IMG/VR virus record: IMGVR_UViG_3300002242_000268 | Span: 13,194 to 34,323 of that record | DNA: 21,130 bases | DNA from: a virus | Reading direction: 5' to 3' (one strand) | Shown: piece by piece, positions 1 to 21,130 of the stretch | Numbering within the stretch: the stretch's first letter is position 1 | Layout of the letters: the number at the start of each line of letters is the position of its first letter | Made by a program: the position numbers and the translations under genes | The notes under the pieces: generated by a model | The model's input: the letters and a program-made list of their open reading frames with translations, nothing else | Told to the model about the DNA's origin: nothing | The model's database searches: none

Positions 1-1929
1 TTAATAGGCACTGTTAATGATTTATTTCCTGCTGATGCAGATGGCACTGGTGCTCCTACCTTAAATGAAAACGCGATATATGACGATACATCAAAACCTT
101 TATTAGCTAAGTTTTCAACTCAACAAAGATTAGGTATTACAGAAGCCCAATATACAACGCCTGCTGTAGGTAGTGGTAATTATCCATATGCACCAAACTT
201 AGGTTTAGCTGTGCTAGAAACAGTACCGATGGTTTCTCCTTTAGAGTTATTTTATGAAACATCGACAAGTGATTTAATATCTCAGTTAAATTTAGACGTA
301 CAAAATGTTAGCACAGATATAACAGGTAATACTTGGGATAACACTGTAAAAGACTTTACTGAAAACGATCCTATAAACAGTATTGTGACGGGTTATTTTT
401 ACCCTACCGCAAGTGGTCAACAAGTTACCACTGCTACTGCTGAAGTTTTAAGTATATTTTCTAGATCATATCCATCAAATGTAATTGATGCTACGATAGA
501 TTATGGACCTAATGGAAGTAATAGACTTACAATTGACTCAAATGGCGCAGGTGGTTATGCTATTAAGACATTAGATACTTTTTATGCTGGTAACGGCGCT
601 GTAGGTGAATCAAATTTTGATGTAACCACAAGAGGTAATTTTCAAATAAATATAAGATGGACACAAGCAAACGGTACTACTGTTGACCAAAGTATAGATT
701 TACAATTACAAAACAGTCCGCCAGAAGTATTTAATGTACCTGCTTCTTTTGAAGTTCAATCAACAAGTACAACTATTTTAACTGGAAGTACATCTAATAT
801 ATACTTTAATTCACCACAAGGATTCAATGGTTGCGCTGCTAATACAGCTGCATTACAAACAGCTCATCCAACAGACAACTCTTCAACCTTTGGTGGTCTT
901 GGTTCTAGTTCAGGTTATTCTGTTATCAGTGTAACAAAAACAGGTGGTCCTACTAACACCACAACATATTACGGCGCTTTAGATTCAACTGGAAACAATC
1001 CTATATCTGATATTTTACAAGGAACAAATGGAGTTGTTTTCCAAAACTCTCAATTTTACCCTGCAGGTGTTGGCAATATAGAGTATTTAACAATGTCGAT
1101 GAATTGCGTTAATACTGTTGGTAACGAACCTGGATATACTTATTGTGTTGATATGAGATTAACTGATTCATTAGGTGCTTCAACAGATTTTAGTTTTTGC
1201 TATACAGTAGGTACTCTTGATTTTACAGGTCAAGTAATATCAACACCTTATCAATTTGCAGCAACTATCGGTGGTAGTGGTTATAGTCAAGTACCTCATT
1301 TAAATTCTCCAAACAACGGTAACACTTCTCAGAATATGGATTTTACTACTGGAGGACCTGGGTATACTTTACCAAGGTGGATAGGTCAAATTCAAAACTG
1401 GACTGGACAAACTGTTTATGTTTGGGGTAACGCTGTTCCTGGATCAGGATCTAGTGGGTCATCTGGCACTGTTACATTTCAAGGCGTCGCTGGAACTCGT
1501 CCTGATGGAACAAGCACAAATATATTTACAACATGGTCAACTAGTTATAACTTAGCAGCTCCTGCTAATTATTATGTTGCATTAATGACACTTACCCCAT
1601 TTACTCCTAATGCTGCACAAATAGCAGCTGGTGTAAGACCAGGGCAAAAATGTACAAATGGTGCTGCTTGCGCAGGTGGTGCAAACTATGACTTTTCCGG
1701 ATGTGCAGCTGTTAATTATGAATTCCAAGCTACTCAAATTTTTACAGGAGCTTATATGTCTGTAAATTGGAATAACTCTGCTGTTAACCCACCTAATCCT
1801 AATACTCTTACTGCTATAAGTACAGTTAGCAACACGTTGCCTCCTTTTTATCCATCAGCTGATGGTACTAGTGTAACTAACCCAAGTCAAAGATGGGCAA
1901 CATCTACACCAATTGCATCAGGACCATAA
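1..1929 (+). CDS. Large beta-rich virion structural protein, 3' part (5' end outside window)
   Basis: The frame is open from base 1, so this is the C-terminal 642 residues of a longer protein; an internal GTG at 211 is not a credible start. The composition is Thr/Ser/Asn/Gly-rich with alternating hydrophobic residues and little charge, as in beta-sandwich phage tail or fibre proteins. A segment at about bases 211-300 (VLETVPMVSPLELFYETSTS, then DLISQLN) resembles a motif I recall from structural proteins of environmental phages. Downstream come Ig/cadherin-like stretches (for example DSLGASTDFSFCYTV) and a few cysteines, some possibly paired. It sits directly upstream of the 431-aa structural protein in the same transcription direction. 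A tail fibre, receptor-binding or head-decoration role is possible but not decided by the sequence. It ends with TAA, followed by 34 AT-rich bases with no hairpin. Confidence 0.7.
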   Translation, partial: LIGTVNDLFPADADGTGAPTLNENAIYDDTSKPLLAKFSTQQRLGITEAQYTTPAVGSGNYPYAPNLGLAVLETVPMVSPLELFYETSTSDLISQLNLDVQNVSTDITGNTWDNTVKDFTENDPINSIVTGYFYPTASGQQVTTATAEVLSIFSRSYPSNVIDATIDYGPNGSNRLTIDSNGAGGYAIKTLDTFYAGNGAVGESNFDVTTRGNFQINIRWTQANGTTVDQSIDLQLQNSPPEVFNVPASFEVQSTSTTILTGSTSNIYFNSPQGFNGCAANTAALQTAHPTDNSSTFGGLGSSSGYSVISVTKTGGPTNTTTYYGALDSTGNNPISDILQGTNGVVFQNSQFYPAGVGNIEYLTMSMNCVNTVGNEPGYTYCVDMRLTDSLGASTDFSFCYTVGTLDFTGQVISTPYQFAATIGGSGYSQVPHLNSPNNGNTSQNMDFTTGGPGYTLPRWIGQIQNWTGQTVYVWGNAVPGSGSSGSSGTVTFQGVAGTRPDGTSTNIFTTWSTSYNLAAPANYYVALMTLTPFTPNAAQIAAGVRPGQKCTNGAACAGGANYDFSGCAAVNYEFQATQIFTGAYMSVNWNNSAVNPPNPNTLTAISTVSNTLPPFYPSADGTSVTNPSQRWATSTPIASGP

Positions 1930-1963: not shown

Positions 1964-3259
1964 ATGAGTGTTTCTCTAAAAGTAAAGTATTATAACTCTT
2001 ACATGTTAAAGAAAATAAATAGAGTCGGTATTTCGTCTTTATATGATTGGTATGTAGAAGAATCTAGAATAAAAGGAGGTTTTAATAATGTACAAACAGG
2101 TTTAGCTCCTAGAGCTTTTTTAGCCTCAGAAAATAATGCGCAAAAACCTAGACCTTCTTCAATAATATATTCTGGTATATTTAATTCTAGAACAGGTATA
2201 AATCAATCAAATGTTTTTCCTTCAGGTGAAGAAATAACTAGAACTGTGGATCCCGCTAAAGGTTCAATACAGAAGCTTTACGCTGAAGATACTAATTTAA
2301 CTATATTTCAAGAAAGAAAAGTTAATAGAGCTTTAATAGATAAAGACGCAGTTTACACACAAGAAGGTCAACCAATTCAAACAGCGTCTAATGTTGTTAT
2401 TGGTGGTATAACACCTTATTTAGGTGATTATGGTATTAGTAGAAACCCAGAAAGCTTTGCTGTGTATGGTTATAATAAATATTTTACAGACAAAGATAAA
2501 GGAGCTGTATTAAGATTAGGTAATAATGGTATTACTGAGATATCATCATTTGGTATGTATGATTATTTTAGAGATGCACTTGCTAGTGTGTCTGATGATA
2601 GAGTTAGAGCTGGGTGGGATATATATAATAATTGTTATACTATATCTTTGTTTATTTCATCACAACAAGCTGCTGGAGAATTTACAGCTTTAAGCTTTGA
2701 TGACTCAGTTAATGGTTGGGTGAGTAGATATAATTTTTTACCAGGACAAATGTTTAGTGTACAAAATAGATTTTATAGTACTTTTCAAGGAGCTATATAT
2801 CAACACTATTCAACAAATGTAAATAGAGCTACATTTTACAATAATTCTCAAGGAGGAACTACAAACTCTACAGTTACCAGTATATTTAACCAAAATCCTT
2901 CTATGGTTAAAAGATTTAGAACTATAAATTATGAAGGTGATAATAACTGGGCTTTAGATAGTTTTGTAACTAGCGATGGTGATACTGTTACACCTGTATC
3001 AGCTCCTGTTGTACCTACAACTTTATCACAAATGAACGATCAGTTATTTCAAAATATATTTAAACCAAAAGAAAATAAATATTTTGCAAATATTATAAAT
3101 AGTTCTGGAGCTACACAAGGAGAGGTTATTTATGGTAGTCAAGTATCTGGTGTTAAAGGATTTTTTGCAAATGCTAAGTTTTCAGCTACTAATACAGCTG
3201 ACACAGGTAAAAATGAATTATTTGCTGTATCTACTGAGTACAACGAATCTTCTTATTAA
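1964..3259 (+). CDS. Phage virion structural protein, tail/stopper-like, crAss-like family resemblance
   Basis: This 431-aa protein has no signal peptide or membrane segment. Diagnostic stretches are SRIKGGFNN near residue 36, SIIYSGIFNSRTG near 66, GSIQKLYAEDTNLTIFQE near 101-118, ALIDKDAVYTQEGQP near 123, and GDYGISRNPESFAVYGYNKY near 153-174 followed by FTDKDKGAVLRL. From memory, this set of motifs (YSGIxNS, GSIQKL, DKDAxY, G(D/E)YGIS(R/K)NPESFAxYG, YFTDKxRGAVxRL) belongs to a virion protein family of crAss-like and other Bacteroidetes phages, annotated there as tail tubular or structural protein. Position upstream of the ejection proteins fits a tail nozzle or hub role. The start is ATG 1964 after an AT-rich leader; ATG 2003 (residue 14) is an alternative. 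The precise virion role is inferred. Confidence 0.75.
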   Translation: MSVSLKVKYYNSYMLKKINRVGISSLYDWYVEESRIKGGFNNVQTGLAPRAFLASENNAQKPRPSSIIYSGIFNSRTGINQSNVFPSGEEITRTVDPAKGSIQKLYAEDTNLTIFQERKVNRALIDKDAVYTQEGQPIQTASNVVIGGITPYLGDYGISRNPESFAVYGYNKYFTDKDKGAVLRLGNNGITEISSFGMYDYFRDALASVSDDRVRAGWDIYNNCYTISLFISSQQAAGEFTALSFDDSVNGWVSRYNFLPGQMFSVQNRFYSTFQGAIYQHYSTNVNRATFYNNSQGGTTNSTVTSIFNQNPSMVKRFRTINYEGDNNWALDSFVTSDGDTVTPVSAPVVPTTLSQMNDQLFQNIFKPKENKYFANIINSSGATQGEVIYGSQVSGVKGFFANAKFSATNTADTGKNELFAVSTEYNESSY

Positions 3260-3269
3260 ATAAAATTAA

Positions 3270-3731
3270 ATGAACAAATTAACTAAAAAACTAAGAAATA
3301 AAATACTTAGTTTTGAAGAAAGCTTACATAATTTACCTAAAGGTAAAGTATTTTTTAATGACACTGAAAATTGCCCTGTTAAAAATACATTTGCAGATGG
3401 TATGCATATAAGACAAATAACTATACCAAAAGGAATATTTGCAATAGGTAAAATACATTTACATGAACATGTTAGTTTTTTGTTAAAAGGTAAAATGGTT
3501 ATAGTAGATGAAGAAAATGGTAGAAAAACTATATCAGCTCCTGAAACTATAATATCAAAACCAGGTATAAAAAGAGCTGTATATGCTTTAGAAGAGTGTG
3601 TGTTTACGAATGTGTTTGCTAATCCCACTAATGAAAAAAACATTAAAAAATTAGAAAAAAATAATGTTGTTAATACATATGATGAATATTATTTACAACT
3701 AGAAAATCAAAAAAAAATAGATAAAATATGA
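3270..3731 (+). CDS. Small cupin-fold protein within the structural operon
   Basis: This 153-aa protein has a single cupin-like core from about residue 42 to 118: HIRQITIPKGIFAIGKIHLH, then EHVSFLLKGKMVIVDEENG and a third strand set ending NVFANP. The HxHxH cluster at residues 63-67 is where cupins place metal-binding histidines, and the LLKGK turn is typical of cupin motif 1. A second-motif histidine is not evident, so metal binding may be incomplete. The C-terminal 30 residues are charged and helical. Small cupins occur in phage structural operons, where they may be virion decorations or modifying enzymes; no substrate can be read here. The leader TAAATAAAATTAAATG follows the previous stop by 10 bases, and its TGA stop overlaps the next ATG (ATGA). 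Confidence 0.7.
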   Translation: MNKLTKKLRNKILSFEESLHNLPKGKVFFNDTENCPVKNTFADGMHIRQITIPKGIFAIGKIHLHEHVSFLLKGKMVIVDEENGRKTISAPETIISKPGIKRAVYALEECVFTNVFANPTNEKNIKKLEKNNVVNTYDEYYLQLENQKKIDKI

Positions 3732-4447
3732 GTTACGTAGCTGTTGGCGGCGGTGTTTTAAGCATTGCTAGCGGAATATTCGGTGGTGGTAAAGCCAGAA
3801 GAGCAAGAAAAAGAGCGGCGAGAAGAAGAGCGGCTCTTGGCAAGAAGCTTAAGCAGCTTGAATCTAATAGACAAGCTATTATAAATCCATACGCTGGGGT
3901 AACAAGTTTAGCCAGTCTTGCTACCGATTTATCTGATAAAATAAGCAACCCTTTTGCTAACTTATCTGTTGCCACGCAGGCAGCTGAAATGAAGATAGAA
4001 CAAAGCAATATCGCTTTAGCCAATACATTAGATACTATTAGAGCTACTGGTGCAAGCGCGGGTGGTGCAACTGCTTTAGCTCAAGCGGCATTGCAAGCAA
4101 AGCAAGGTGTCGCGGCTAGTATAGAAGCTCAAGAGAAGGCAAACGAAGACAAAAGAGCACAAGGTGAAGCTCAAATGGAAGCTAGACAAGTAGCAGAAGC
4201 CAGAAGACTACAATCAATAGGTATAAGTGAAGGTGCAAGAGAACAATCAGCACAAGCACAAGGATTACAATTTAAGTTTAATGCTAGAGAAAGAAGACAA
4301 GACAATCAAATAAATAGAGTTGAAAGACAACTTGGTATGGCAGCTAGAGCAGAATCACAAGCTAGAGCTGATCAAACTTCAGCTATAACAGGTATGCTTG
4401 GTGGATTATCAAGTATAGCTGGTAGCGCATTATCAGGTGATGGTTAA
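3728..4447 (+). CDS. Probable internal virion / DNA-ejection protein (T7 gp14-like role)
   Basis: This 239-aa protein is rich in Ala, Arg, Gln and Glu and reads as one long helix bracketed by glycine-zipper-like hydrophobic ends (residues 1-22, GGGVLSIASGIFGGG, and about 217-236, AITGMLGGLSSIAGSALSG). A strongly basic patch, RRARKRAARRRAALGKK, lies at 24-40. Small Ala-rich proteins with a glycine-rich hydrophobic N-terminus are typical of podovirus internal core proteins just upstream of large ejection proteins, which is the arrangement here. Inference: it inserts into or spans the host envelope during genome delivery. ATG 3728 overlaps the upstream TGA. The first half is visibly richer in GC than its neighbours (GCG, GGC, AGC codons), partly because of its Ala/Arg content. 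No enzymatic motif is seen. Confidence 0.65.
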   Translation: MSYVAVGGGVLSIASGIFGGGKARRARKRAARRRAALGKKLKQLESNRQAIINPYAGVTSLASLATDLSDKISNPFANLSVATQAAEMKIEQSNIALANTLDTIRATGASAGGATALAQAALQAKQGVAASIEAQEKANEDKRAQGEAQMEARQVAEARRLQSIGISEGAREQSAQAQGLQFKFNARERRQDNQINRVERQLGMAARAESQARADQTSAITGMLGGLSSIAGSALSGDG

Positions 4448-5564
4448 TAAAAACATAAGTATGGAAAATAAAAATATAACTACAAACCTTCTTATAAAGC
4501 AAATGATAGAGACAGATGCTATGGCTTATAATAGAGATTATCTTGCCTCTTCAACCGACTCTGAGTTTGGTATTTTTAACAAAGCCTATCAAGATAAAGG
4601 TAAGCTATATGCAAAACTAAGTCTAGCTGTTCAAAATAATAACTGTATAAGCGATAATTGCGTTTATGAAATTAAACAACTTAGGCAACTAGATAATGCT
4701 CCTGCTGCTTCTATTGAGTTTATGGAAGTTTTAAATTCTGAGTTAATGGTTACAGAAGAAGATAGCTACGATGTTAATAATTATTACGGTTATTTAGTTG
4801 CTTATTGCATTATTACAAACAAACCTGGCTTTTCTAAAAACGACGGTTATGATGTTAATCTTTATTTAAATGAAGATGGTAGCCAAACTATTGTTTTTTC
4901 TGGTCCTGCCTTAAAACAAGATTTAGTTATTAATAGTTTTACTTTAAAAGCTTTAATAGATTCTGATACTTCTTTAGTTGTCTCAACGCCAGATATAAAT
5001 AAAGACATGTTAAGATTATTAACAGAAGTCGGTTTGTTTGATCCTGAATTTGTAGATGTTGAAAAAGAACAACTTAAAACTAATGCTAAAATATTACATG
5101 AATTTATATTAAAAACAGAAACAGGTGAACCTGATTATAGAATAATAGACATAGGTAATGGTAAAGGTAAAAACGTTTTACAGTTTGATATGGAAAAAAT
5201 ACAAGCTAAAATAAATCCTTTTATAAATGCAGAAGTTGCTGGTTTACTAAGCTCTGAGCAGGATGCTGTGGCAGCATGGAACGTTTATATTGGAAGAGGT
5301 TCTAGTGTAGATGAAGATGCTCAAATGGTACAAGACGCTAACGCTGGTAGTTTGTCATGGTCTTATGAAGAAGACTTACCTTTATCTCAAGATAAAAAAG
5401 TTGAATTTGAATCTAAATACAAAGAGTATTTTATAAATAATTATCTAAAAGAGTTTATGACTAATAAGTTTCCAACAGTAAAAGAAGATGCTGCTGTTTT
5501 TGATTTAGAAGAAGCTAAACAAAATAAAGCTCAAAAGTTTTTAGACGACAACAATTTAAACTAA
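4440..5564 (+). CDS. Uncharacterised protein between two putative ejection proteins
   Basis: I do not recognise this protein of about 374 residues. It is acidic, has no signal peptide or membrane segment, and looks mixed alpha/beta. A folded central region contains DGYDVNLYLNEDGSQTIVFS, then a Leu/Asp-rich helix region with LLTEVGLFDPEFVDVEKEQL. The C-terminal 60 residues are charged and helical. Two cysteines sit five residues apart in NNNCISDNCVYE. Its place between the gp14-like protein and the giant protein matches the middle internal core protein (gp15 position) of T7-like phages, but no sequence similarity supports that beyond location. ATG 4440 overlaps the upstream gene by 8 bases. 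ATG 4461 (MENKNITTN) is an attractive alternative because it clears the overlap and has an A-rich leader. Confidence 0.6.
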   Translation: MVNKNISMENKNITTNLLIKQMIETDAMAYNRDYLASSTDSEFGIFNKAYQDKGKLYAKLSLAVQNNNCISDNCVYEIKQLRQLDNAPAASIEFMEVLNSELMVTEEDSYDVNNYYGYLVAYCIITNKPGFSKNDGYDVNLYLNEDGSQTIVFSGPALKQDLVINSFTLKALIDSDTSLVVSTPDINKDMLRLLTEVGLFDPEFVDVEKEQLKTNAKILHEFILKTETGEPDYRIIDIGNGKGKNVLQFDMEKIQAKINPFINAEVAGLLSSEQDAVAAWNVYIGRGSSVDEDAQMVQDANAGSLSWSYEEDLPLSQDKKVEFESKYKEYFINNYLKEFMTNKFPTVKEDAAVFDLEEAKQNKAQKFLDDNNLN

Positions 5565-5569
5565 ATTAA

Positions 5570-8500
5570 ATGACTGAACTACTAAAATATGTGGCTTCAC
5601 TCCAAGATCAAGGCTTTAATAAAACAGAAATTGAAGCTAAAGTAAAAGAGTGGAAAGCAGCTAATCAACCTTTAGATACAAAAAAAGAGGACGATCCTAC
5701 GCCAAAGCCTAAAAAATTTTTTAAAGATGACGGTAGTGGTGAGTTTAATTTAGATGCTTTTGAAACTGAATCTACAAGAAACGTAGCTAAAAAAGTAAAC
5801 GAACAAAAAGATAAAGGTGATCCTTTAGCTGATTATATAAGTGAAGATAGTAAAAACGAAGACTTAAAAATAAATAAATCTTTTTTTACAAAAAGAGGTG
5901 ATGAAACAATATTTGATTTAGATGCTTTTGCTAGTGAAGAAACTAGAAGTTTAGCTAGACAAGTTAATTTACCTGAAAATGATAAAACATATAATATAGG
6001 ATCTGGTGCTTACAAAGTTGTGTATAATGAAGGAGGTGCGCCTGTTTTCTATTCCAAACCTATTGGTGATTCAGAATGGTCTAGCGCAGAAGGTGATCCA
6101 CTTAGAACAGCTACAATAGCTCAAATACTGGGTGTAGGTGATGTTAATTTTGATGTAGATAAGTATGACGTTGAAATACCACAAATACAAGAATTAGAAG
6201 AAGAAGAAAAAGAAACAGAACTAGTAATGGGTTCTGAAAACTTAGACGAAATACAAATACCTTTACTTGTTGAAAACAAAAGTAAATATAAAATAAATGG
6301 TAATGTATATACTTACGAAAAATTAGACACAAGAATAAGAAACAATGAGCCAGGTTTTGAAAAAATAACTAGTGTATCAGAATATTTAAATCTTATAAAA
6401 GCAGATGGTGCTATTGTAGAAGTTTTACCAGGCGACTACGAAGGATCTATAGAAGAAAAATATGATAATTTTGTAAATATAACAACTATAAGTTCGGAAA
6501 AAGAACTTGAAATAGATAGGTTTGTAAATGACATAAACTTTACACCTTATAAACAAAATGTAGTTAAACCTGTTTTTATTCCAGGCGCTACCAGTGGAGG
6601 CGCGCTTCCAACGACATCTTCCACGCAAGAAGTTTCACCATATGAAGAGGAACTAGATAAAGCTAGATTAATTTTAGAAAATGAAAGAAAAGAAGAAGGT
6701 AGTAACGAACCTATAACAAAGCAAGAAATAGAAGGACTAGCTAGGCAAATTATAAAAAATGAAAAAGTTTTTGAAGCTAATAATCAACTTAAAAAAGATT
6801 ATTTAGAAAATCTACCAAATGACGAAAGAGAAGCTTTATTTAGTTTTGTTCTTGATAGAGTAAGAGAAAATGAAAAAATATATTTAGGTAAACTACCAAA
6901 ACAATATACGGATCCTAAAACAGGTGAAAGATATACTAGAAAAGAATTAGAAGAAAGATTTGATTTTGAAGCTAGGTTTGATGATATAAAAAACAGTACT
7001 TTAGTTTCTAATATAAAAAATCTTACTTCAGCAATAAATGTAGATCAACAAAAATTAGTTTCTCTTGCTAAAAAAATAAAAGAAAACCAAGCCAACGGTT
7101 TTGACGTAACAGAGTTATCTCAAGAATACAATACTATTTTAACATATTTAAATAGAAGAGTCGAGGGTGTTAATTCTTATAAAAAAGATTTAAAGTACGC
7201 AATAAGAGACGTACAGCTTGATTATAGCAATTATATTAAAAAAGGTCAAGAATATCAAGATGATGTATATGAATTAGAATGGCTAAAAAGAAATTATAGC
7301 CAAATGAAAAAATATTTTGGAGGATTAGGTGAGGCTGGAGATATAACTATAAACTCTATAAATTACGCTTTAGGTGGTCTTCAGCAATTGCTAGCTGTTA
7401 TAGAAATGACTGCTTCACCAGCTTCTAAACCTGCACTACGACTTAAACAGCAAGAACTTCTTCAGGTTCAAAGTGATGTTTTAGATTTTAGAAGAAAAAG
7501 ATTAGATCGCTATGTTAAAGCTCCTGAATTTAAAAATGCTTTTGATAGCATAGAAAACTTTGGTGAATATACTTTAAACTATGGTCTTGAGCTAGCTCCT
7601 TTCTATGCTACTATGATAGGTACTACTTATTTAACAGGTAATCCTTATGCTGGTATAACAGCAGCCTCAGGTACTACTGGTGGTATGTATGCAGGTGAAA
7701 GATATAATGAGATGTTGAACGGAGGTAGGCCGTACGATCCTTGTGAAATGAATTTAACTATGACTGGTTATAGTATAGCTGAAATAGCAGGTACTATACC
7801 TGAGTTTAAAATATTAAAAGGAGTAAAAACTAGATTTAAAGGTAGCACTGGAGGTGAAGCTTTAGAAGGTGGTATTAAAGGTTGGGCTACAAGAAGATTA
7901 CAAGGTATACCAGAATATGCTAAGCTAATAGGTTTAGATTTTGGAGGAGAAATAGGAATAACTTTAACTACACAGAACTTGTTAGATGGTAAACCTTTGT
8001 TTGCTGGATTTGATGAAGCAGCTTTCAATACTTTACTTTTTTCAAACACAATGTATGTTACTCCTATTATGGCGGGTGGAATATATAATTCTTTATCAAC
8101 GCCTAAAATAAACGCTGAATTTAAAAGTAACGTAGCTGAATATAACAATATAGAGTTTTCTCTTTATGATAAAAGATTTAAAAATAAAGTTATAAAAAAC
8201 AGTTTAACGCCAGATCAAGTTAAACAAATGAAACAAACTCAATTAGATTTACTTAAAGCTAATGAGAATATTTTATTAGAGTTGAATAAGAAAATTAAAG
8301 AAATGGACGCTCAGGGTTTTAAAATATACGCCGATGCCATGACTGAAATTGCTGATCTTCAAAATAAAGCTAATGAAATAAGAAATAATCCAGCTTATGA
8401 CTTTTTAACTAAAGAAAGATTAATAAAACCTTTAAGAGAAAGATTTGAAAAACTAGTAAATGCTAGAAATGTATTTACTGAAGCCTTTACTAAGACGTTT

Positions 8501-10045
8501 AGATTACTTCCTAAAGATGAGCAAAAAAGAATAAATGCTTTAGCTGTATCAAATTTAAAAAGAAGAGAAGGAATAGATAATCCTACTGACAATCAAATAT
8601 ATGAAGAATCTGAGCAAATACATATAGAAGAGAAATTTGAAAGCAACATAGACAAAGGCATAGAGCTTTTAACATCTATGAAAGAAAAAGGCATAAATGT
8701 AAATTTTTCTTTAGGTAGAACAAATAAAGAGACTATAGCTAGGTATAAAAAAATGTTAAATGATAGGGTTAAAGATCCTAAAAATAACTTGACACAAGAA
8801 GAGGCAAATGCAGAACTAGAAGAATTTATAGAGGGTATAAATGATGGAACTATAAATGGTACTACTTTTGTAAGTACAGTTACAAATGCTAAAGGTGAAA
8901 CAAGGTTTGTTTACGATGTTGTAGTGTCACAGCAAAATTCTATAGCTAATCAAGCAAGTGAAACAACTTTTCATGAACTTAATCATGTAATATTTTCTGA
9001 AGCACTAGGAACTAAGTCTGAAGCATTTACGCCTGTTGCCGGTGCGATATTGAATTATTTAGCAGAAAATAATCAAAACGCATATATAAGAATAATAACA
9101 AAAGCTGATACTACTAGAGCAGACGAGGTTATAATAGCGTTTCTAGAAGAGTTGTCAGCAAAAAGAATAAACATTAAAAAAGCTAATAATTTTAACTTAT
9201 GGAATATATTAGCATTTGGCGTTAACAATTCTGTAAAAGCTAATACTACTTCAGATTTTAATATGGATTTTTCTGGTCCAGATGGAGCTTTAGAGTTTTT
9301 CCAAACTTTAGCTGATGCTTGGAACAATAAAGAATTATCAGTTGATACATTAAATAAAATAGTAGATAGTGATGTGTGGCAGGGCGATACTGCTGGTGGA
9401 ACTCTTGATGAAGTTGTTATAACAGCTTCTAGCAAAAAAAGATCTCAAAGAATATCACCAAGAGGTATAGAATTTATAGAGGGTTTTAACGAAGGTCTTT
9501 ATACAAATGAAGATTTAGTTGAAATAGTAAGAAGCAACAATGAAACAGATAAATACGCTGCAGCAGAAGCAATTATAGAAAAGAATTTTGGTTTAATATC
9601 AGGTATTATAGGTTTTGAAAGAAGAGGTACAAAAGGTGTTAGTGTTGAAGGTATAAAACAAGCTTTAATAGAGATAATATTAGGTGGTGATATAGCGAGT
9701 TGGAGTGGTAAGACTACACCTTTGTTTGAAGAAGGAGAAGGTTTTAATCCTGACACAGCTAAAGTTACTACGTTTTTAGGAAGACTTAGAAATAGAGGTG
9801 AAATATTTGAAAGAGCTAGAGACTTAGGTGATACGGTTATTGATCAAACAGTAGATCAAGAAGAAGGTACTACGGAAATACCTGAAGTAACAACAACACA
9901 AGAAACAGTTGTAGAAACAGATCCATTTAAAGTTTTACCTAATGTAGATGTACAGTCTGTTGTTGATGCTGTAAGTCAAGAAATAGAACTAGGTAATCTA
10001 GATATAGATAACGTAACGTTAAAAGATTTAAAACCTTTTCTCTGA
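5570..10045 (+). CDS. Giant polyvalent/ejection protein, N-terminal part, with HExxH metallopeptidase motif
   Basis: This 1,491-aa frame is the first half of a giant protein. Residues 50-77 and 105-133 are a duplicated module. An acidic, low-complexity region follows, then long coiled-coil-like segments (about 400-620). Gly/Ala-rich hydrophobic stretches at about 663-716, 730-748 and 783-842 could be membrane-inserting. A zincin motif, FHELNH (H1135, E1136, H1139), is followed by ADEVIIAFLEE, where E1186 is a candidate third zinc ligand. Large virion proteins that combine a protease with other domains are known as phage polyvalent proteins, injected with DNA to handle host or virion targets. 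The frame stops at TGA 10043 shortly after a T run, and the protein sense continues immediately in the next frame. The leader TAAATTAAATG lies six bases after the previous stop. A virion location is inferred from context. Confidence 0.75.
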   Translation: MTELLKYVASLQDQGFNKTEIEAKVKEWKAANQPLDTKKEDDPTPKPKKFFKDDGSGEFNLDAFETESTRNVAKKVNEQKDKGDPLADYISEDSKNEDLKINKSFFTKRGDETIFDLDAFASEETRSLARQVNLPENDKTYNIGSGAYKVVYNEGGAPVFYSKPIGDSEWSSAEGDPLRTATIAQILGVGDVNFDVDKYDVEIPQIQELEEEEKETELVMGSENLDEIQIPLLVENKSKYKINGNVYTYEKLDTRIRNNEPGFEKITSVSEYLNLIKADGAIVEVLPGDYEGSIEEKYDNFVNITTISSEKELEIDRFVNDINFTPYKQNVVKPVFIPGATSGGALPTTSSTQEVSPYEEELDKARLILENERKEEGSNEPITKQEIEGLARQIIKNEKVFEANNQLKKDYLENLPNDEREALFSFVLDRVRENEKIYLGKLPKQYTDPKTGERYTRKELEERFDFEARFDDIKNSTLVSNIKNLTSAINVDQQKLVSLAKKIKENQANGFDVTELSQEYNTILTYLNRRVEGVNSYKKDLKYAIRDVQLDYSNYIKKGQEYQDDVYELEWLKRNYSQMKKYFGGLGEAGDITINSINYALGGLQQLLAVIEMTASPASKPALRLKQQELLQVQSDVLDFRRKRLDRYVKAPEFKNAFDSIENFGEYTLNYGLELAPFYATMIGTTYLTGNPYAGITAASGTTGGMYAGERYNEMLNGGRPYDPCEMNLTMTGYSIAEIAGTIPEFKILKGVKTRFKGSTGGEALEGGIKGWATRRLQGIPEYAKLIGLDFGGEIGITLTTQNLLDGKPLFAGFDEAAFNTLLFSNTMYVTPIMAGGIYNSLSTPKINAEFKSNVAEYNNIEFSLYDKRFKNKVIKNSLTPDQVKQMKQTQLDLLKANENILLELNKKIKEMDAQGFKIYADAMTEIADLQNKANEIRNNPAYDFLTKERLIKPLRERFEKLVNARNVFTEAFTKTFRLLPKDEQKRINALAVSNLKRREGIDNPTDNQIYEESEQIHIEEKFESNIDKGIELLTSMKEKGINVNFSLGRTNKETIARYKKMLNDRVKDPKNNLTQEEANAELEEFIEGINDGTINGTTFVSTVTNAKGETRFVYDVVVSQQNSIANQASETTFHELNHVIFSEALGTKSEAFTPVAGAILNYLAENNQNAYIRIITKADTTRADEVIIAFLEELSAKRINIKKANNFNLWNILAFGVNNSVKANTTSDFNMDFSGPDGALEFFQTLADAWNNKELSVDTLNKIVDSDVWQGDTAGGTLDEVVITASSKKRSQRISPRGIEFIEGFNEGLYTNEDLVEIVRSNNETDKYAAAEAIIEKNFGLISGIIGFERRGTKGVSVEGIKQALIEIILGGDIASWSGKTTPLFEEGEGFNPDTAKVTTFLGRLRNRGEIFERARDLGDTVIDQTVDQEEGTTEIPEVTTTQETVVETDPFKVLPNVDVQSVVDAVSQEIELGNLDIDNVTLKDLKPFL
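5717..5968 (+). repeat. Two diverged copies of a 28-29-residue module in the giant protein
   Basis: Residues 50-77 (FFKDDGSGEFNLDAFETEST, continuing RNVAKKVN) and 105-133 (FFTKRGDETIFDLDAFASEE, continuing TRSLARQVN) share the pattern FFxxxGxxxF(N/D)LDAFxxExTRxxAxxVN. The coding DNA has diverged, so this is an old duplication at protein level, not a recent DNA repeat. The copies are separated by an acidic linker of about 27 residues. Confidence 0.7.
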
Positions 10046-13000
10046 AGCAGCTGCACAACAAATAGCTGATGAGTTAGGAATACCAGTATCCCGTATATTA
10101 AATCCAAAAGACAACTTACGTAAAGGTGAAGTAACACCTATACAAATGTTTATAAAAAAGAATGGACCAGCTTTGTTAGCGTTGTTAAAACAAGTTAAAG
10201 GCAATGCTGATTTAATAACTGTTACAGACAGTAAGGGTAGAACTAAAAAAATAGGTGGTGAAGGAAGAAGAATAGCTCAAAAAATATTAGACGCGTTTTT
10301 TGTAAAAGGTGATAAAGTAAATAACCAAATACAATATAAATTAGATTTATCTAAATTAGATTTACCTTATTTTTACTCTGTGTTTGGCATGGATGCTGCA
10401 GGTAATATAAAAGATGCTAGATCAGGAACAGCTCAAGCCGCAAAAGGATTTTTAGAATTATTAGCAAGACTACAAACACTTAGCGCTATTGAGGCATCTA
10501 TAGACATACAAGTAGAACAAGGAACTATAACAGAGCCAGAGGCTAAGCGCAAAAAAGTATCAGTAAAACGTAGTCAATTTAATTTTAAAAGAGGTGAATT
10601 TGTTTTTGATAAAAGATTTGTAGACTATATATTTGGCACAAGAGTAAATAGCAAAGGTAAAACTGTAAAAGTAAGAAAGTACGACTTAACTACAAAAAAT
10701 GGTATAGAACTTATTAACACGTTAAATGAATTTTTTAAAGAAAATCCTAAATTATCTTATTTATTTAGAACTGGAATGACAGGTGGTTCTAATTTAACAT
10801 TTGATACAGTTGGTAATTTTAACAAAATATTTGGTGAAATTGAAGTTGGACCATTAGGTAGAAACAAATATACGCTTGCTGGAGCCATACAGAGCTCGAC
10901 AGCGATAAACAAACTAATAAGTGATCCTAGTATACAGGCTAAAAAATTAAAGCTCTTAAAAGACTTGTTTTTAAAAATACAAGATTATTTAAAAAAGCCA
11001 GAAAACAAAGGTAAAGGTTGGGTTTTTCAGCAATTTTTAATTGACGGAACAAAAGATCAAAACCATCCATTAAGATTTTTAGCACCAACAACTTTTTATG
11101 CTATTAATCCTATAACAGGTAAGGCTAACATTATAGATAAAGTAACTGAAGAACATTTAAATCCAGCAGTTCAAATTGGTAAAACACTGTTAGATGCAGC
11201 TGTAAAAGGTAATGTTGAAACTGTTTTTGACAATGTAGTTTCTAAGTCTTATGCACAAGGTGGTTTATTAAGAACTAATGATTTAGATTTAGGTATTTTT
11301 AATTTACAAGATAAAATGCCAGAAATATATTACAGTAAAGTTTTACCTTTGTTGGAAGCTGGAAAATTAGATTTTATTAAAGGAGGTATGGCTTCTTGGA
11401 TAAGATATAGTGAAAACAATGTAGCAAATCCTTTTTCTTATAAATTAATAAATCCTAATATTACAATAGGTGAATTTTTTGTAGGTAAACTAGATTTAAA
11501 AGGAATTGAAAATAAACAAGCAGCTATTGACATGGCTGGTCTTAAAGCAAATGGTTTAATAACACAGGTTTTAACAGGTGAAATAACTATAGCTGAAGCA
11601 AAAGCAGAATTTAAATCATACTCAACAAAAGTTCTACCTTTAAAAGCTAAAGCTTTTACAAATATTAACAACACTTTTGGTAATAAAACAAAATTAAGTA
11701 CAACTGTTGGTGCTCAAATAGAAGTTTTAACAAATTATCAAAAAGCTATTGAATTATCTAGAGATCCTAATGCTCCAGAGAAAGGTATATCTGTTTTAGA
11801 CTTTGATGATACTGTAGCTATAACAAGCAGTAAAGTAATAGTAACTATGCCTGATGGTAGTACTAGAAGTATAAGCGCTACTGATTTTGCATTAGAGCAC
11901 GATGCTTTAACAGCGGAAGGAGCTAAATTTGATTTTAGTGATTTTAATAAAGTAGTAGGTGGTAAGCGTGGACCTTTGTTTAATAAGCTTAAAAAAGCTG
12001 TAGGAAAATTTGGTAACAAAAATGTATTTATCCTTACGGCTAGAGCTCCAGAAGCAGCTCCTGCTATATATGAGTGGTTAAAATCAGAAGATATAGTATT
12101 AATAGAAAGTAATATTGTAGGTTTAGCTAATGGATCACCACAGGCAAAAGCTAATTGGGTTGTAAGTAAAGCTGCAGAAGGTTATAATGATTTCTATTTT
12201 GCGGATGATGCTATATTAAATGTAAAAGCAGTTCAAGATGTTTACAATGTATTAGATATAAAAGGCACAGCTCAAATAGCTTTAAGAAGTAAACAAAATT
12301 CATTTGATACTATAATTAATGATATTATAGAGAAGAAAACAGGTATAGAGGCTTATAAAGAATATTCATCAGCTAAAGCAAAAACAATTGGTGCTGGTAA
12401 AGGTTTGTTTAATTTTTACATACCACCATCGGCAGAAGATTTTACAGGATTATTATACCGCATGTTAGGCAAAGGAAAAGTTGGTGATGCTCAAATGGCA
12501 TTTTTTAAAGACAATTTACTTGATCCTTACAATAGAGCTGAAATAGAAATTGAATCATCTAAGGTTTCTGCTTCAAATGATTTTAACGCTTTAAAAGCTG
12601 CATTTCCTAAAATACCTAAAAGTCTTAAAAAAGAAACAGGTGTAGGTAAGTTTACTTACGAGCATGCAATTAGAGTATATATATGGGATCAACAAGGTAT
12701 GACAGTACCTGGATTATCTAAAAGAGATCAACAAAGGCTTGTTAGTTTCATTAAATCTGACCCTGACTTAAAAGTTTTTAGTGATGAAATAATTAAAATT
12801 CAAAAAGGTGATCTTTATCCTGGACCTGGAAATAGTGATGGTTGGGTAGCTGGCACAATAAGTACAGATATTATATCTAATATAAACAAGGTTAGTAGAC
12901 AAAAATACTTGGCTCAATGGCAAGAAAACGTAGACATTATATTTAGTCCAAAAAATTTAAATAAAATTGAAGCGGCTTTTGGAACTTCATATGTTACTGC

Positions 13001-14468
13001 TTTAAAAAATTCATTAGCTGCAATGAAAAAAGGTAGCAACAGAGCCTCTGGTCAAGATCAAATAACTAGAAGATGGTATGATTGGATAAATAACTCTGTT
13101 GGTGTTGTAATGTTCCTTAATACTAGATCAGCTTTATTACAGTTAATTTCTAATGTTAACTTTATTAACTGGAAAGATAATAATCCTTATCAAGCAGGTA
13201 AAGCATTTGCAAATCAACCTCAGTACTGGAAAGATGTAATGTTTTTATTAAACTCGCCTTATTTAACAACAAGAAGAGAAGGTTTAAAAATAAATATTAC
13301 AGAGTCAGAAATAGCTGATTTAGCAGCAGATAAAAGTGGTAATAAAATACAAAGGTTTATTGCTTTAGCGTTAAATAAAGGTTTTGTATTTACAAGATAT
13401 GCTGATAGTTTTGCTATAGCAACAGGTGGTGCAACTTTTTACAGAAACAGAGTTAATAGTTATTTAGAACAAGGTTTTGATCAACAAACAGCAGAACAAC
13501 AAGCTTTTGAAGATTTTAGAGAAACATCTGAAACAAGTCAACAGTCTAGTAACGCTGCTAAAATAAGTGATCAGCAAAGATCAGCTGCAGGTCGTTTAAT
13601 ATTATCTTTTGGTAATACTCAAATGCAGTATGCAAGAATACAAAAAAGAGCTATACAAGATCTTATAAATGGTAGAGGTGATTGGAAACAAAATATATCT
13701 AAAATAGTTTACTACGGCGGTATACAGAATTTAATATTTAACTCGCTACAACAAGGTGTTCAGTTTTTATTATTTGACGGTGATGAGTCTGACGAAAAAG
13801 ACCAAACTAAAAGACAACAAAGAATAGATAGAACTTTAAATGGTATGTTTGATTCTCAAGTTAGAGGTTTTGGTATACAAGGAGCTTTAGCTGTTACACT
13901 TAAACATGTATTAATGGAGATAGCAGAACAAACTGGTAAAAAATCACCGGAATATGAAGAAGCTGTAGATGCTTTATTTTCTATATCTCCGCCAATACAA
14001 GCTAAATTAAGAAAGTTAAATAGCGCTGCAAGAAGTTTTTCATGGAACATGGAAGAAATGAAAGCACAAGGTATAGATATTGATAATCCAGCTTATTTAG
14101 CAGTTGCTCAAGTTATATCAGCATTGACAAATTTACCAACAGATGAAGCTGTTCAAAAAACAAATGCTATAAGAAATATAATTAGCGATCAAACAGCGGC
14201 TTGGCAAAAAGTAGCTTTATTATTAGGTTGGAGTACTTGGGATGTAGGTTTACCTTACTACGGTGTTGAAGAAAAGGTTATTATAACACCTGAAATGGAA
14301 GCTGAATTAAAAGTAGAAAACATGATGAAAGACACTACTAAACCGCAACAAGTAGAAACTTTAATAAAACTAGGTTTAAGTAAAAAAGAAATAAAAGCTT
14401 TAAAATACGAAGTTGATAGAGTAAATAAAATAATTGAATTACAAAATAAAAAAGAAAATGGAAAGTAG
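10041..14468 (+). CDS. Giant polyvalent/ejection protein, C-terminal part, with HAD phosphatase domain
   Basis: The frame is open without an ATG from 10041 (SEAAAQQIADELGIPVSRIL); the first ATG is 10146 and gives 1,440 aa, numbered from there below. The lack of an initiator, with protein-like sequence upstream, argues for continuation of the preceding gene. A HAD-superfamily domain spans about 548-720: motif I DFDDT (nucleophile D552, acid D554, T556), motif II ILTAR with T631, a lysine in SPQAKANW for motif III, and motif IV FADD (D687, D688). After it comes a long helical C-terminal half with conserved-looking segments (NTRSALLQLISNVNFINW; RLILSFGNTQMQYARIQKRA; then a hydrophobic stretch near 1,190-1,225) that resemble the scaffold region of other large phage polyvalent proteins. 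The substrate of the HAD domain (nucleic-acid ends, nucleotides or other phosphates) is unknown. The end overlaps the next gene. Confidence 0.75.
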   Translation, partial: SEAAAQQIADELGIPVSRILNPKDNLRKGEVTPIQMFIKKNGPALLALLKQVKGNADLITVTDSKGRTKKIGGEGRRIAQKILDAFFVKGDKVNNQIQYKLDLSKLDLPYFYSVFGMDAAGNIKDARSGTAQAAKGFLELLARLQTLSAIEASIDIQVEQGTITEPEAKRKKVSVKRSQFNFKRGEFVFDKRFVDYIFGTRVNSKGKTVKVRKYDLTTKNGIELINTLNEFFKENPKLSYLFRTGMTGGSNLTFDTVGNFNKIFGEIEVGPLGRNKYTLAGAIQSSTAINKLISDPSIQAKKLKLLKDLFLKIQDYLKKPENKGKGWVFQQFLIDGTKDQNHPLRFLAPTTFYAINPITGKANIIDKVTEEHLNPAVQIGKTLLDAAVKGNVETVFDNVVSKSYAQGGLLRTNDLDLGIFNLQDKMPEIYYSKVLPLLEAGKLDFIKGGMASWIRYSENNVANPFSYKLINPNITIGEFFVGKLDLKGIENKQAAIDMAGLKANGLITQVLTGEITIAEAKAEFKSYSTKVLPLKAKAFTNINNTFGNKTKLSTTVGAQIEVLTNYQKAIELSRDPNAPEKGISVLDFDDTVAITSSKVIVTMPDGSTRSISATDFALEHDALTAEGAKFDFSDFNKVVGGKRGPLFNKLKKAVGKFGNKNVFILTARAPEAAPAIYEWLKSEDIVLIESNIVGLANGSPQAKANWVVSKAAEGYNDFYFADDAILNVKAVQDVYNVLDIKGTAQIALRSKQNSFDTIINDIIEKKTGIEAYKEYSSAKAKTIGAGKGLFNFYIPPSAEDFTGLLYRMLGKGKVGDAQMAFFKDNLLDPYNRAEIEIESSKVSASNDFNALKAAFPKIPKSLKKETGVGKFTYEHAIRVYIWDQQGMTVPGLSKRDQQRLVSFIKSDPDLKVFSDEIIKIQKGDLYPGPGNSDGWVAGTISTDIISNINKVSRQKYLAQWQENVDIIFSPKNLNKIEAAFGTSYVTALKNSLAAMKKGSNRASGQDQITRRWYDWINNSVGVVMFLNTRSALLQLISNVNFINWKDNNPYQAGKAFANQPQYWKDVMFLLNSPYLTTRREGLKINITESEIADLAADKSGNKIQRFIALALNKGFVFTRYADSFAIATGGATFYRNRVNSYLEQGFDQQTAEQQAFEDFRETSETSQQSSNAAKISDQQRSAAGRLILSFGNTQMQYARIQKRAIQDLINGRGDWKQNISKIVYYGGIQNLIFNSLQQGVQFLLFDGDESDEKDQTKRQQRIDRTLNGMFDSQVRGFGIQGALAVTLKHVLMEIAEQTGKKSPEYEEAVDALFSISPPIQAKLRKLNSAARSFSWNMEEMKAQGIDIDNPAYLAVAQVISALTNLPTDEAVQKTNAIRNIISDQTAAWQKVALLLGWSTWDVGLPYYGVEEKVIITPEMEAELKVENMMKDTTKPQQVETLIKLGLSKKEIKALKYEVDRVNKIIELQNKKENGK

Positions 14469-20028: not shown

Positions 20029-20277
20029 TTATTTTAAAAAATGATTAATCCATGCAACTAAACCATTCATGTTTAGTGCAACTAAGTTCCATTGTTTGCG
20101 GGATGATACTTGTATTATAACACAACAAAATCCTATTATAAATAATCTAGGATCTAAAGTCCATTGCCCTGCTATTAAAAATGCAGCTCCCATATATCCT
20201 ACACGAGATGCAAATTTCTGATAGCTTGTTAATTTATTTGTATAAGCTAATAGCTTAAGTATTTTTCTTTTTACCAT
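20029..20277 (-). CDS. Small two-TM membrane protein in the nrd operon
   Basis: An 82-aa protein with a basic N-terminus (MVKRKILKLL) and a hydrophobic centre that reads as two short transmembrane segments: about 26-40 (VGYMGAAFLIAGQW) and 45-59 (LFIIGFCCVIIQV), separated by the tight turn TLDPR. A third weakly hydrophobic stretch (LNMNGLVAWINHFL) ends the protein. The QWTLDPRLFIIGF...RKQWNLVALNMNG region looks conserved in style, with two Trp and an Asp-Pro turn, but I cannot name a family. ATG 20277 overlaps the end of nrdB (ATGGTAA), and its TAA stop is six bases before the next ATG. It is expressed with the reductase; a link to nucleotide metabolism is not shown. Confidence 0.6.
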   Translation of the reverse strand: MVKRKILKLLAYTNKLTSYQKFASRVGYMGAAFLIAGQWTLDPRLFIIGFCCVIIQVSSRKQWNLVALNMNGLVAWINHFLK

Positions 20278-21130
20278 ATGTCTTCAAAATCTTCTCCTTC
20301 ATTCGCTTTACTATAGTCAGTCGGCCTAATCGCAAAAAAGTCAGTGTGAGTGTGACCCCCAGTAAGATGATAGAACCAATCAAGATTCGCTGCTGCATCC
20401 TTGTCATAGTTGAAAAATCTTCTCTTATCTGAGTAACCCAATTCTTGTAGTTTTTCATTTGTTCTTTTTCTAATAAATTGTTTTAAGTCATATGACTTTA
20501 GGTTTTCAATATCTCCCATCTCAAACATTTTATCTATATATTTCTCTTCAAGATCTACCATAATTTTAGCAGCCTCGTATATATCTTCTTTACATTGATC
20601 TTTTAAATCAGGTATTTCTTCACACATGTGTCTAAATAATTGACAGCCCATTCTACTATGTAATGATTCGTCTCTTACAGACCATTTCATTTGTTGTCCT
20701 ATTCCTTTGAGAAGGTTGCGAAGCTGAAAACTATATAAAACAGCGAAAAGCTGAGTACAGACTAACACCTTCTGCGAAAGCCGAAAACACGGCCAAGCTT
20801 CTACCAATCCCCACAGGATCAGTACCGTTATAAGAGACCAAATTATCAAATCTTTCCGATGTTGCGGGTTCGTGAAGAAACGCTTCAAAGTCTTCCAATC
20901 CAAGTGTTTCATTTAAATAACTATATGCAACAGCGTGTATTGTTTCTTGTGAGCCAAATATCATAGCCATCTGTTGCACCTCGTGTTTTGGGAACCATGA
21001 TACGTACTTTTTGTGTCCAGTAATCTGATACTGCACATTCAGTCTGAGCAAAACCTAGTAAGATATTTCCTACTAAGTTTTTTTCAGCTGGAGTCAATTT
21101 TTCGTTCCAATCCTTTACATCACCGGACAT
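20271..21130 (-). CDS. nrdB: Class I ribonucleotide reductase, small (radical) subunit; 5' truncated, read in three frames
   Basis: NrdB houses the dimetal-tyrosyl radical cofactor for NrdA. Coding sense runs in frame 1 from 21130 to about 21012 (VKDWNEKLTPAEKNLVGNIL and on to SDYWTQK), frame 2 to about 20750 (WFPKHEVQQMAMIFGSQETI and on to SLYSAF), and frame 3 to 20271 (AVLYSFQLRNLLKGIGQQMK and on to EDFEDIW). Metal ligands are visible: a Glu in FAQTECAV at the first-ligand position, SQETIH (Glu, His) with the radical Tyr four residues after the His (HAVAY), FAEG (Glu), and RDESLH (Glu, His). Both breaks vanish if one base is dropped from the T run 21008-21012 and one from the A run 20746-20749 (plus-strand view), giving 285 visible residues. 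The ATG at the window edge is internal: similar proteins continue upstream of VKDWNEKLT. All catalytic residues survive, so the gene is probably functional in nature. Confidence 0.85.

Follow-up and report, generated by a model that had tools for sequence, protein, structure and literature searches.

The main text of a survey of large polyvalent proteins of phages (Iyer et al., 2017; PMC5512222) describes chains that join several unrelated catalytic domains with a zincin as hub, reports a rarer HExxxH form of this zincin and proposes auto-processing by such zincins. In crassviruses and N4, the particle stores giant cargo proteins that pass out through the tail ahead of the DNA; the N4 virion RNA polymerase gp50 and the crAss001 cargo protein gp47 are giant packaged proteins with an HExxH domain. 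Another giant is gp101 (1,691 amino acids) of Cellulophaga phages phi38:1 and phi40:1 (Pervagoviridae), which stands at the end of a terminase-portal-muzzle block. The two copies are 99.9% identical, and that of phi40:1 is annotated as 'structural protein, experimental MS/MS' (tandem mass spectrometry).

Here, we analyze a giant gene in a window of 21,130 nucleotides, which comprises bases 13194-34323 of the 34,323-base IMG/VR virus record IMGVR_UViG_3300002242_000268. The gene encodes a protein of about 2,965 residues that combines a core homologous to gp101 with a zincin domain, a HAD phosphatase domain and a conserved helical C-terminus. Taken as a whole, these features are probably best explained by a polyvalent virion protein that is packaged and ejected by a podovirus related to flavophages and equipped with a crAss-type muzzle.

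One gene across a frame break

As recorded, the giant gene lies in two frames. The first is an open reading frame (ORF) of 1,491 amino acids with an ATG start and a stop at its end; the second is already open ahead of 10047 and stays so up to 14468, and 10146 is the position of its earliest ATG. At the gene's base composition (31% GC), the probability that 1,473 codons stay open by chance is about 5e-61; for the 33 open codons ahead of the ATG it is 0.045, which is weak evidence taken alone. We scored 79 related IMG/VR viral loci for four domains (core, zincin, HAD and C-terminus) and found all of them within a single ORF in 73 loci (67 distinct sequences); the 68 such ORFs that are uncut by a contig end encode 2,277-3,353 amino acids. 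Outside the 73 are contigs that are cut short, three loci in which no zincin was matched, and L076, whose giant is split. In nine related loci, the alignment of a single ORF runs to the end of the first frame and continues straight into the start of the second, as in L004, whose residues 1-1494 and then 1494-2967 align to the two frames. The DNA of L003, 96% identical over 9900-10200, reads in frame across the break. Since relatives carry a single unbroken ORF, the two frames are one gene of about 2,965 residues, as the sequence-only reading of this DNA had claimed when it joined them by dropping a single base near 10039.

The same reading had seen no initiator near the start of the second frame, which agrees with our alignments: the methionine encoded at 10146 lies within the protein and occurs in only 7 of the 64 sequences aligned. 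It had also named relatives encoding the halves as separate genes as the case that would speak against it. Among the related loci, the one with a split giant is L076, which we rejected as a counter-example because a 38-residue stretch is duplicated at its junction. Judged from its sequence, this split looks like an assembly artefact; the first ORF of L076 retains a zincin match. The record under study contains two more breaks, in the gene for NrdB (ribonucleotide reductase small subunit; window 20274-21130, minus strand), which is split over three frames here and is one ORF of 322-331 codons in relatives, pointing to further sequence errors in the record. Because NrdB of the same record is broken twice and intact copies of the giant exist, the most likely cause of the break near 10040 is an error in sequence or assembly, or else a lesion private to this record; a programmed frameshift is less likely.

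Two separate proteins, a 1,491-residue N-terminal one and a C-terminal one made from near 10146 or through programmed frameshifting, are what the record as deposited would suggest, with its two ORFs and an ATG at 10146. Given the single-ORF relatives, the in-frame reading of the closely similar L003, the poor conservation of the internal methionine, the artefactual look of L076 and the breaks in NrdB, we regard this alternative as scarcely credible. Both a programmed frameshift and a separate C-terminal gene were rejected on the ground that close relatives have one frame, and the two-protein explanation is largely refuted already.

Modules of the giant protein

The sequence-only reading had assigned phosphatase and protease domains to the giant, and both assignments were supported by motif conservation. 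The HAD motif set (D-x-D-x-T, motif II T/S, K and DD) is complete in 73 of 73 sequences, with D2077, D2079, T2081, T2156, R2158, K2193, D2212 and D2213 as the conserved residues. PHROG_415 (polynucleotide kinase) matches 38 of 46 family members (best 1.4e-8). In agreement with this independent match, the top structural match of the domain is the 3'-phosphatase of T4 Pnkp (Z 10.4, 119 residues, root-mean-square deviation 2.4, 13% identity). The T4 Pnkp 3'-phosphatase and Pnkp1 occupy ranks 1-3 (Z 9.8-10.4), a modest lead over other HAD phosphatases, the next of which reaches 8.3. Resemblance in fold and family thus suggests that the domain most likely removes 3'-phosphates from nucleic-acid ends. 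Unlike T4 Pnkp, this predicted 3'-phosphatase is embedded in a giant virion-type protein. We also tried crAss001 gp61 ('polynucleotide kinase') as a comparator for the HAD domain and obtained no match. Six relatives (L026, L027, L028, L031, L032 and L042) have an insertion of about 200 residues in the HAD alignment region (450-457 versus 246 amino acids).

The zincin motif HELNH lies at 8972-8986 (residues 1135-1139), and H1135, E1136, H1139 and the distal E1186 are invariant in 53 sequences, despite identity that falls to 11-20%. In the structural model, the order of elements is strand, strand, HExxH helix and Glu helix, in agreement with the published description of polyvalent-protein zincins (PMC5512222), including an HExxH helix with a second, Glu-bearing helix. 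Three relatives (L008, L010 and L012) have the HExxxH form instead, and three others (L033, L074 and L080) have no zincin by profile. The VIA rows for the zincin model were mostly helical-bundle matches below Z 8; a row for anthrax lethal factor, a zincin-type protein, was too weak to be used (Z 5.9). By analogy with polyvalent proteins, the zincin most likely processes the giant polypeptide itself; an attack on host proteins instead is possible.

Ahead of these domains, the N-terminal modules are duplicated, as the sequence-only reading had noticed, with 44% identity between the copies over 43 columns (E 4e-8). The model of residues 600-1300 has a pLDDT (predicted local distance difference test) score of 77. 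The core profile gave an unexpected PDB match to 2qp2, listed as 'Unknown protein' (E 2e-4 over about 110 residues), which falls at window 7796-8101 (joined residues ~743-844). We take 2qp2 to be a MACPF/perforin-like protein of Photorhabdus; the match may have arisen by chance or may point to an action on membranes.

At the other end of the protein, the C-terminal module is 42-83% identical across the family and has fold matches to annotated phage polyvalent proteins, including proteins annotated with LPDs (large polyvalent protein-associated domains); no family-wide Pfam match to a named LPD domain was found. Searches of PDB sequences with the HAD, zincin and C-terminal profiles returned nothing significant, and Foldseek searches of both models against the PDB returned nothing at E < 0.001. 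The giant resembles large polyvalent proteins in carrying at least two unrelated catalytic domains, zincin and HAD, in one ORF (73 of 79 relatives), which together with the C-terminal fold matches sustains the earlier proposal of a polyvalent protein. By these comparisons, the giant is a mosaic. Its core is of the kind common in flavophage virions, its zincin is likewise common but varies, its C-terminus is shared with some of the isolates and, in fold, with phage polyvalent proteins, and its HAD domain is specific to the lineage.

Relatives and the virion block

Terminase and portal group the phage with Flavobacterium Elemovirus, Cellulophaga Pervagoviridae and Pachyviridae and Tenacibaculum phage Gundel_1, and also with Maribacter phage Panino and the spring-water genome MW202828. 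Searching with the core profile, we found phi38:1 gp101 (E 8e-31), Gundel_1 gp74 (8e-31), Elemovirus gp20 (4e-29), phi46:3 gp120 (2e-21) and Panino (2e-6), with shuffled-sequence controls no better than 0.19. The phi38:1 gp101 protein is like the giant in its core and in its place, and differs in having no HExxH, HAD or matching C-terminus and in being about 1,270 residues shorter. Elemovirus gp20 (3,694 amino acids) and Gundel_1 gp74 (2,482 amino acids), giants annotated 'structural protein', share core and zincin (zincin profile E 6e-7 and 3e-4, respectively), and Gundel_1 gp74 shares the C-terminus as well (1.3e-10); the HAD profile is unmatched in both. Elemovirus gp20 also carries a DUF3293 domain. 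MW202828, the nearest deposited relative by terminase, encodes a 3,859-amino-acid giant (L088:741-12320) with HExxH at 1615 and 2500 and poor or no match to the core, HAD and C-terminal profiles.

Gene order in the window follows that of phi40:1: muzzle, short fibre, gp99, gp100 and the giant last (Table 1). In phi40:1, gp97 (muzzle), gp98, gp99, gp100 and gp101 are all noted as 'experimental MS/MS proteomics analysis', and the giant here shares with polyvalent proteins a portal-terminase structural gene context. The 239-amino-acid protein matches gp99 weakly (E 2e-7, small database), and the 375-amino-acid protein has no detectable similarity to phi40:1 gp100. The sequence-only reading had called these two genes gp14-like and gp15-position. 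Those labels found no support: the genes preceding the giant gave no PHROG or Pfam match to gp14, gp15 or gp16 families, and gp99-like, by weak homology, and gp100-position describe the genes better. In Foldseek, T7 gp15-gp16 appeared only at E 0.31. The notes of NC_021796 (phi38:1) cite 'phi18:1 gp91-gp101', yet phi18:1 has 65 genes and no gp101; the MS/MS source behind these notes is evidently phi40:1.

The muzzle, one profile in isolates, is encoded here by two adjacent genes (L002:10182 to window 1929, and window 1964-3259), a split shared by relatives. The portal, also one profile in isolates, likewise corresponds to two adjacent genes (L002:1935-3896 and 3916-4326). A Fib_succ_major (FISUMP) domain (E 7e-20) lies inside the N-terminal part of the muzzle (L002:10182-13400, residues ~220-392) and is possibly a receptor-binding insert.

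Table 1. Features of the giant gene and its upstream neighbors, in window coordinates
Feature	Position	Strand	Remarks
Muzzle N-terminal part, gene end	1..1929	+	begins upstream of the window; PF25731 above cut-off on the upstream part
crAss-type muzzle protein, C-terminal part	1964..3259	+	PF25729 above cut-off
Short tail-fibre/adhesin-like protein	3270..3731	+	phi40:1 gp98 position
239-aa small Gly/Ala- and helix-rich protein	3728..4447	+	probable homologue of phi38:1/phi40:1 gp99 (virion MS/MS)
375-aa gene just 5' of the giant	4437..5564	+	phi40:1 gp100 position (gp100 MS/MS-annotated)
Giant gene, 5' part as recorded	5570..10045	+	residues 1-1491; ends at the frame break
N-terminal module, copy 1	5675..5800	+	residues 36-77
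N-terminal module, copy 2	5846..5968	+	residues 93-133
Helical Gly/Ala-rich core	7388..8815	+	residues ~607-1082; homologous to flavobacterial podophage giant structural proteins
Zincin domain	8747..9349	+	residues 1060-1260; HELNH and distal Glu 1186
Single-base frame change interval	10036..10047	+	intact in relatives
Giant gene, 3' part	10047..14468	+	joined residues ~1493-2965; close relatives encode both parts in a single ORF
HAD phosphatase domain	11703..12440	+	residues 2045-2290; DFDDT, LTAR, K2193, FADD
Conserved helical C-terminal module	12441..14465	+	residues 2291-2965

Relatives of the giant's second half are encoded by 556 IMG/VR stretches, yet a search of 50,697 deposited phage records gave no match to it, even at E 1. 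In UniProt, A0A218MMX7, A0A218ML07, A0A218MLT5 and A0A7S9STY3, uncharacterized proteins of uncultured marine viruses, share the module made up of HAD and C-terminus in both fold and sequence (28-41% identity, E 1e-47 to 4e-61); their records assign it no function. To judge from these searches, the HAD module is a new element: the isolate giants compared lack it, and deposited phage genomes gave no match to it. Of 17 loci from genome assemblies, 8 are in Bacteroidota bins; the rest are in scattered bins that look like binning contamination. The phage is marine, and its host is probably a member of the Bacteroidota.

Function, alternatives and significance

The core is homologous to the MS/MS-annotated gp101 and the gene order is the same, which together support packaging of the giant in the virion. 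The central claim of the sequence-only reading stands, and on firmer ground than it had been given, since one homologue has an annotation based on virion mass spectrometry. The phage would be a podovirus akin to Pervagoviridae and Pachyviridae, both flavobacterial families, and to the genus Elemovirus. The giant would close, as its largest member, a three-gene cargo or ejection set (239 amino acids, 375 amino acids and the giant) behind the tail muzzle. Packed in the head, it would exit via portal and muzzle before or with the DNA. The N-terminal and core modules may serve packaging and passage through the envelope, a role suggested for the core because it is the part shared with gp101, and the enzymatic modules would then act in the periplasm or cytoplasm. 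There, the zinc metallopeptidase would most likely process the giant itself, and the Pnkp-type HAD phosphatase would most likely strip 3'-phosphates from nucleic-acid ends made by host nucleases. Ejection into the host cell, self-processing and the phosphatase substrate are the steps that we infer beyond the homology and synteny.

Several results weigh against this explanation. Because phi38:1 gp101 is without the zincin and the isolate giants compared have no match to the HAD profile, packaging is indicated through the shared core alone. No strong transmembrane helix is present, every 19-residue window having a mean Kyte-Doolittle value of at most ~1.25; of the Gly/Ala-rich, membrane-like segments that had been noted from the sequence, the composition stands and the membrane character is weak. 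The zincin model has no significant fold match, so its three-dimensional support is indirect. Two wider relatives keep the C-terminus without an intact phosphatase: L109 has lost the HAD domain, and L110 (residues 1899-2006) its DD motif and nucleophile, indicating that HAD is not essential to the protein. T4 Pnkp has a kinase as well as a 3'-phosphatase, whereas no kinase domain was found here; together with the lack of RNA ligase PF09414 in 18 phage contigs and of RtcB in 14, this leaves a complete repair pathway not evident and RNA repair within the same genome unsupported.

These losses, together with the relatives that have no zincin by profile and the fact that packaging needs no active sites, would fit a structural ejection protein whose zincin and HAD folds have no catalytic role and persist as scaffold relics. 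We consider this unlikely: the zincin's metal ligands H, E, H and the distal E are invariant while the rest of the domain diverges, and the HAD motif set is uniformly complete, a pattern expected of active enzymes. Resemblance of the HAD domain to polynucleotide-kinase-type enzymes, usually early cytoplasmic proteins, could instead mean that the giant is a non-virion early protein for host take-over or replication that merely adjoins structural genes. Its place at the end of a block whose phi40:1 counterparts are all MS/MS-annotated, and its gp101-type core, make that a little more unlikely still.

The comparison with N4 and crassviruses raises the further idea of a virion RNA polymerase, with a diverged polymerase hidden in the C-terminal region or the middle of the protein. 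The size class, the HExxH domain and the cargo position recall the N4 polymerase as described and crAss001 gp47; like the crAss001 cargo proteins gp45-gp47, the giant lies downstream of a crAss-type muzzle. Against this, its core, zincin and C-terminus have no detectable sequence similarity to crAss001 gp45-gp50. No polymerase domain was detected in the giant, of which residues ~1300-2040 lie outside the folded models, and a PF00940 search found nothing in 15 contigs, which is not decisive since the control also matched nowhere. We hold a polymerase to be very improbable.

As a packaged polyvalent protein, the giant would bring together flavophage giants supported by virion MS, muzzle and cargo systems of the crass type, and polyvalent proteins, all three of them known themes. 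Having many IMG/VR relatives and no matching deposited phage record, it is a common yet unstudied virion-type protein. Its phosphatase module adds to the polyvalent repertoire, as the main text of Iyer et al. (2017; PMC5512222) makes no mention of haloacid, phosphatase or polynucleotide kinase. A more specific role can be offered tentatively and with some doubt: HAD could be a virion-delivered 3'-phosphatase that enters with the genome, is possibly freed by the zincin and, within the first minutes of infection, heals the ends left in DNA or RNA by defence nucleases of the host. If the phosphatase is injected and active, it would provide a defined enzyme for testing how phages protect nucleic-acid ends at entry. 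If that role is true, it would be a particle-borne, end-healing anti-defence enzyme, found widely among uncultured phages whose hosts are probably marine Bacteroidota.

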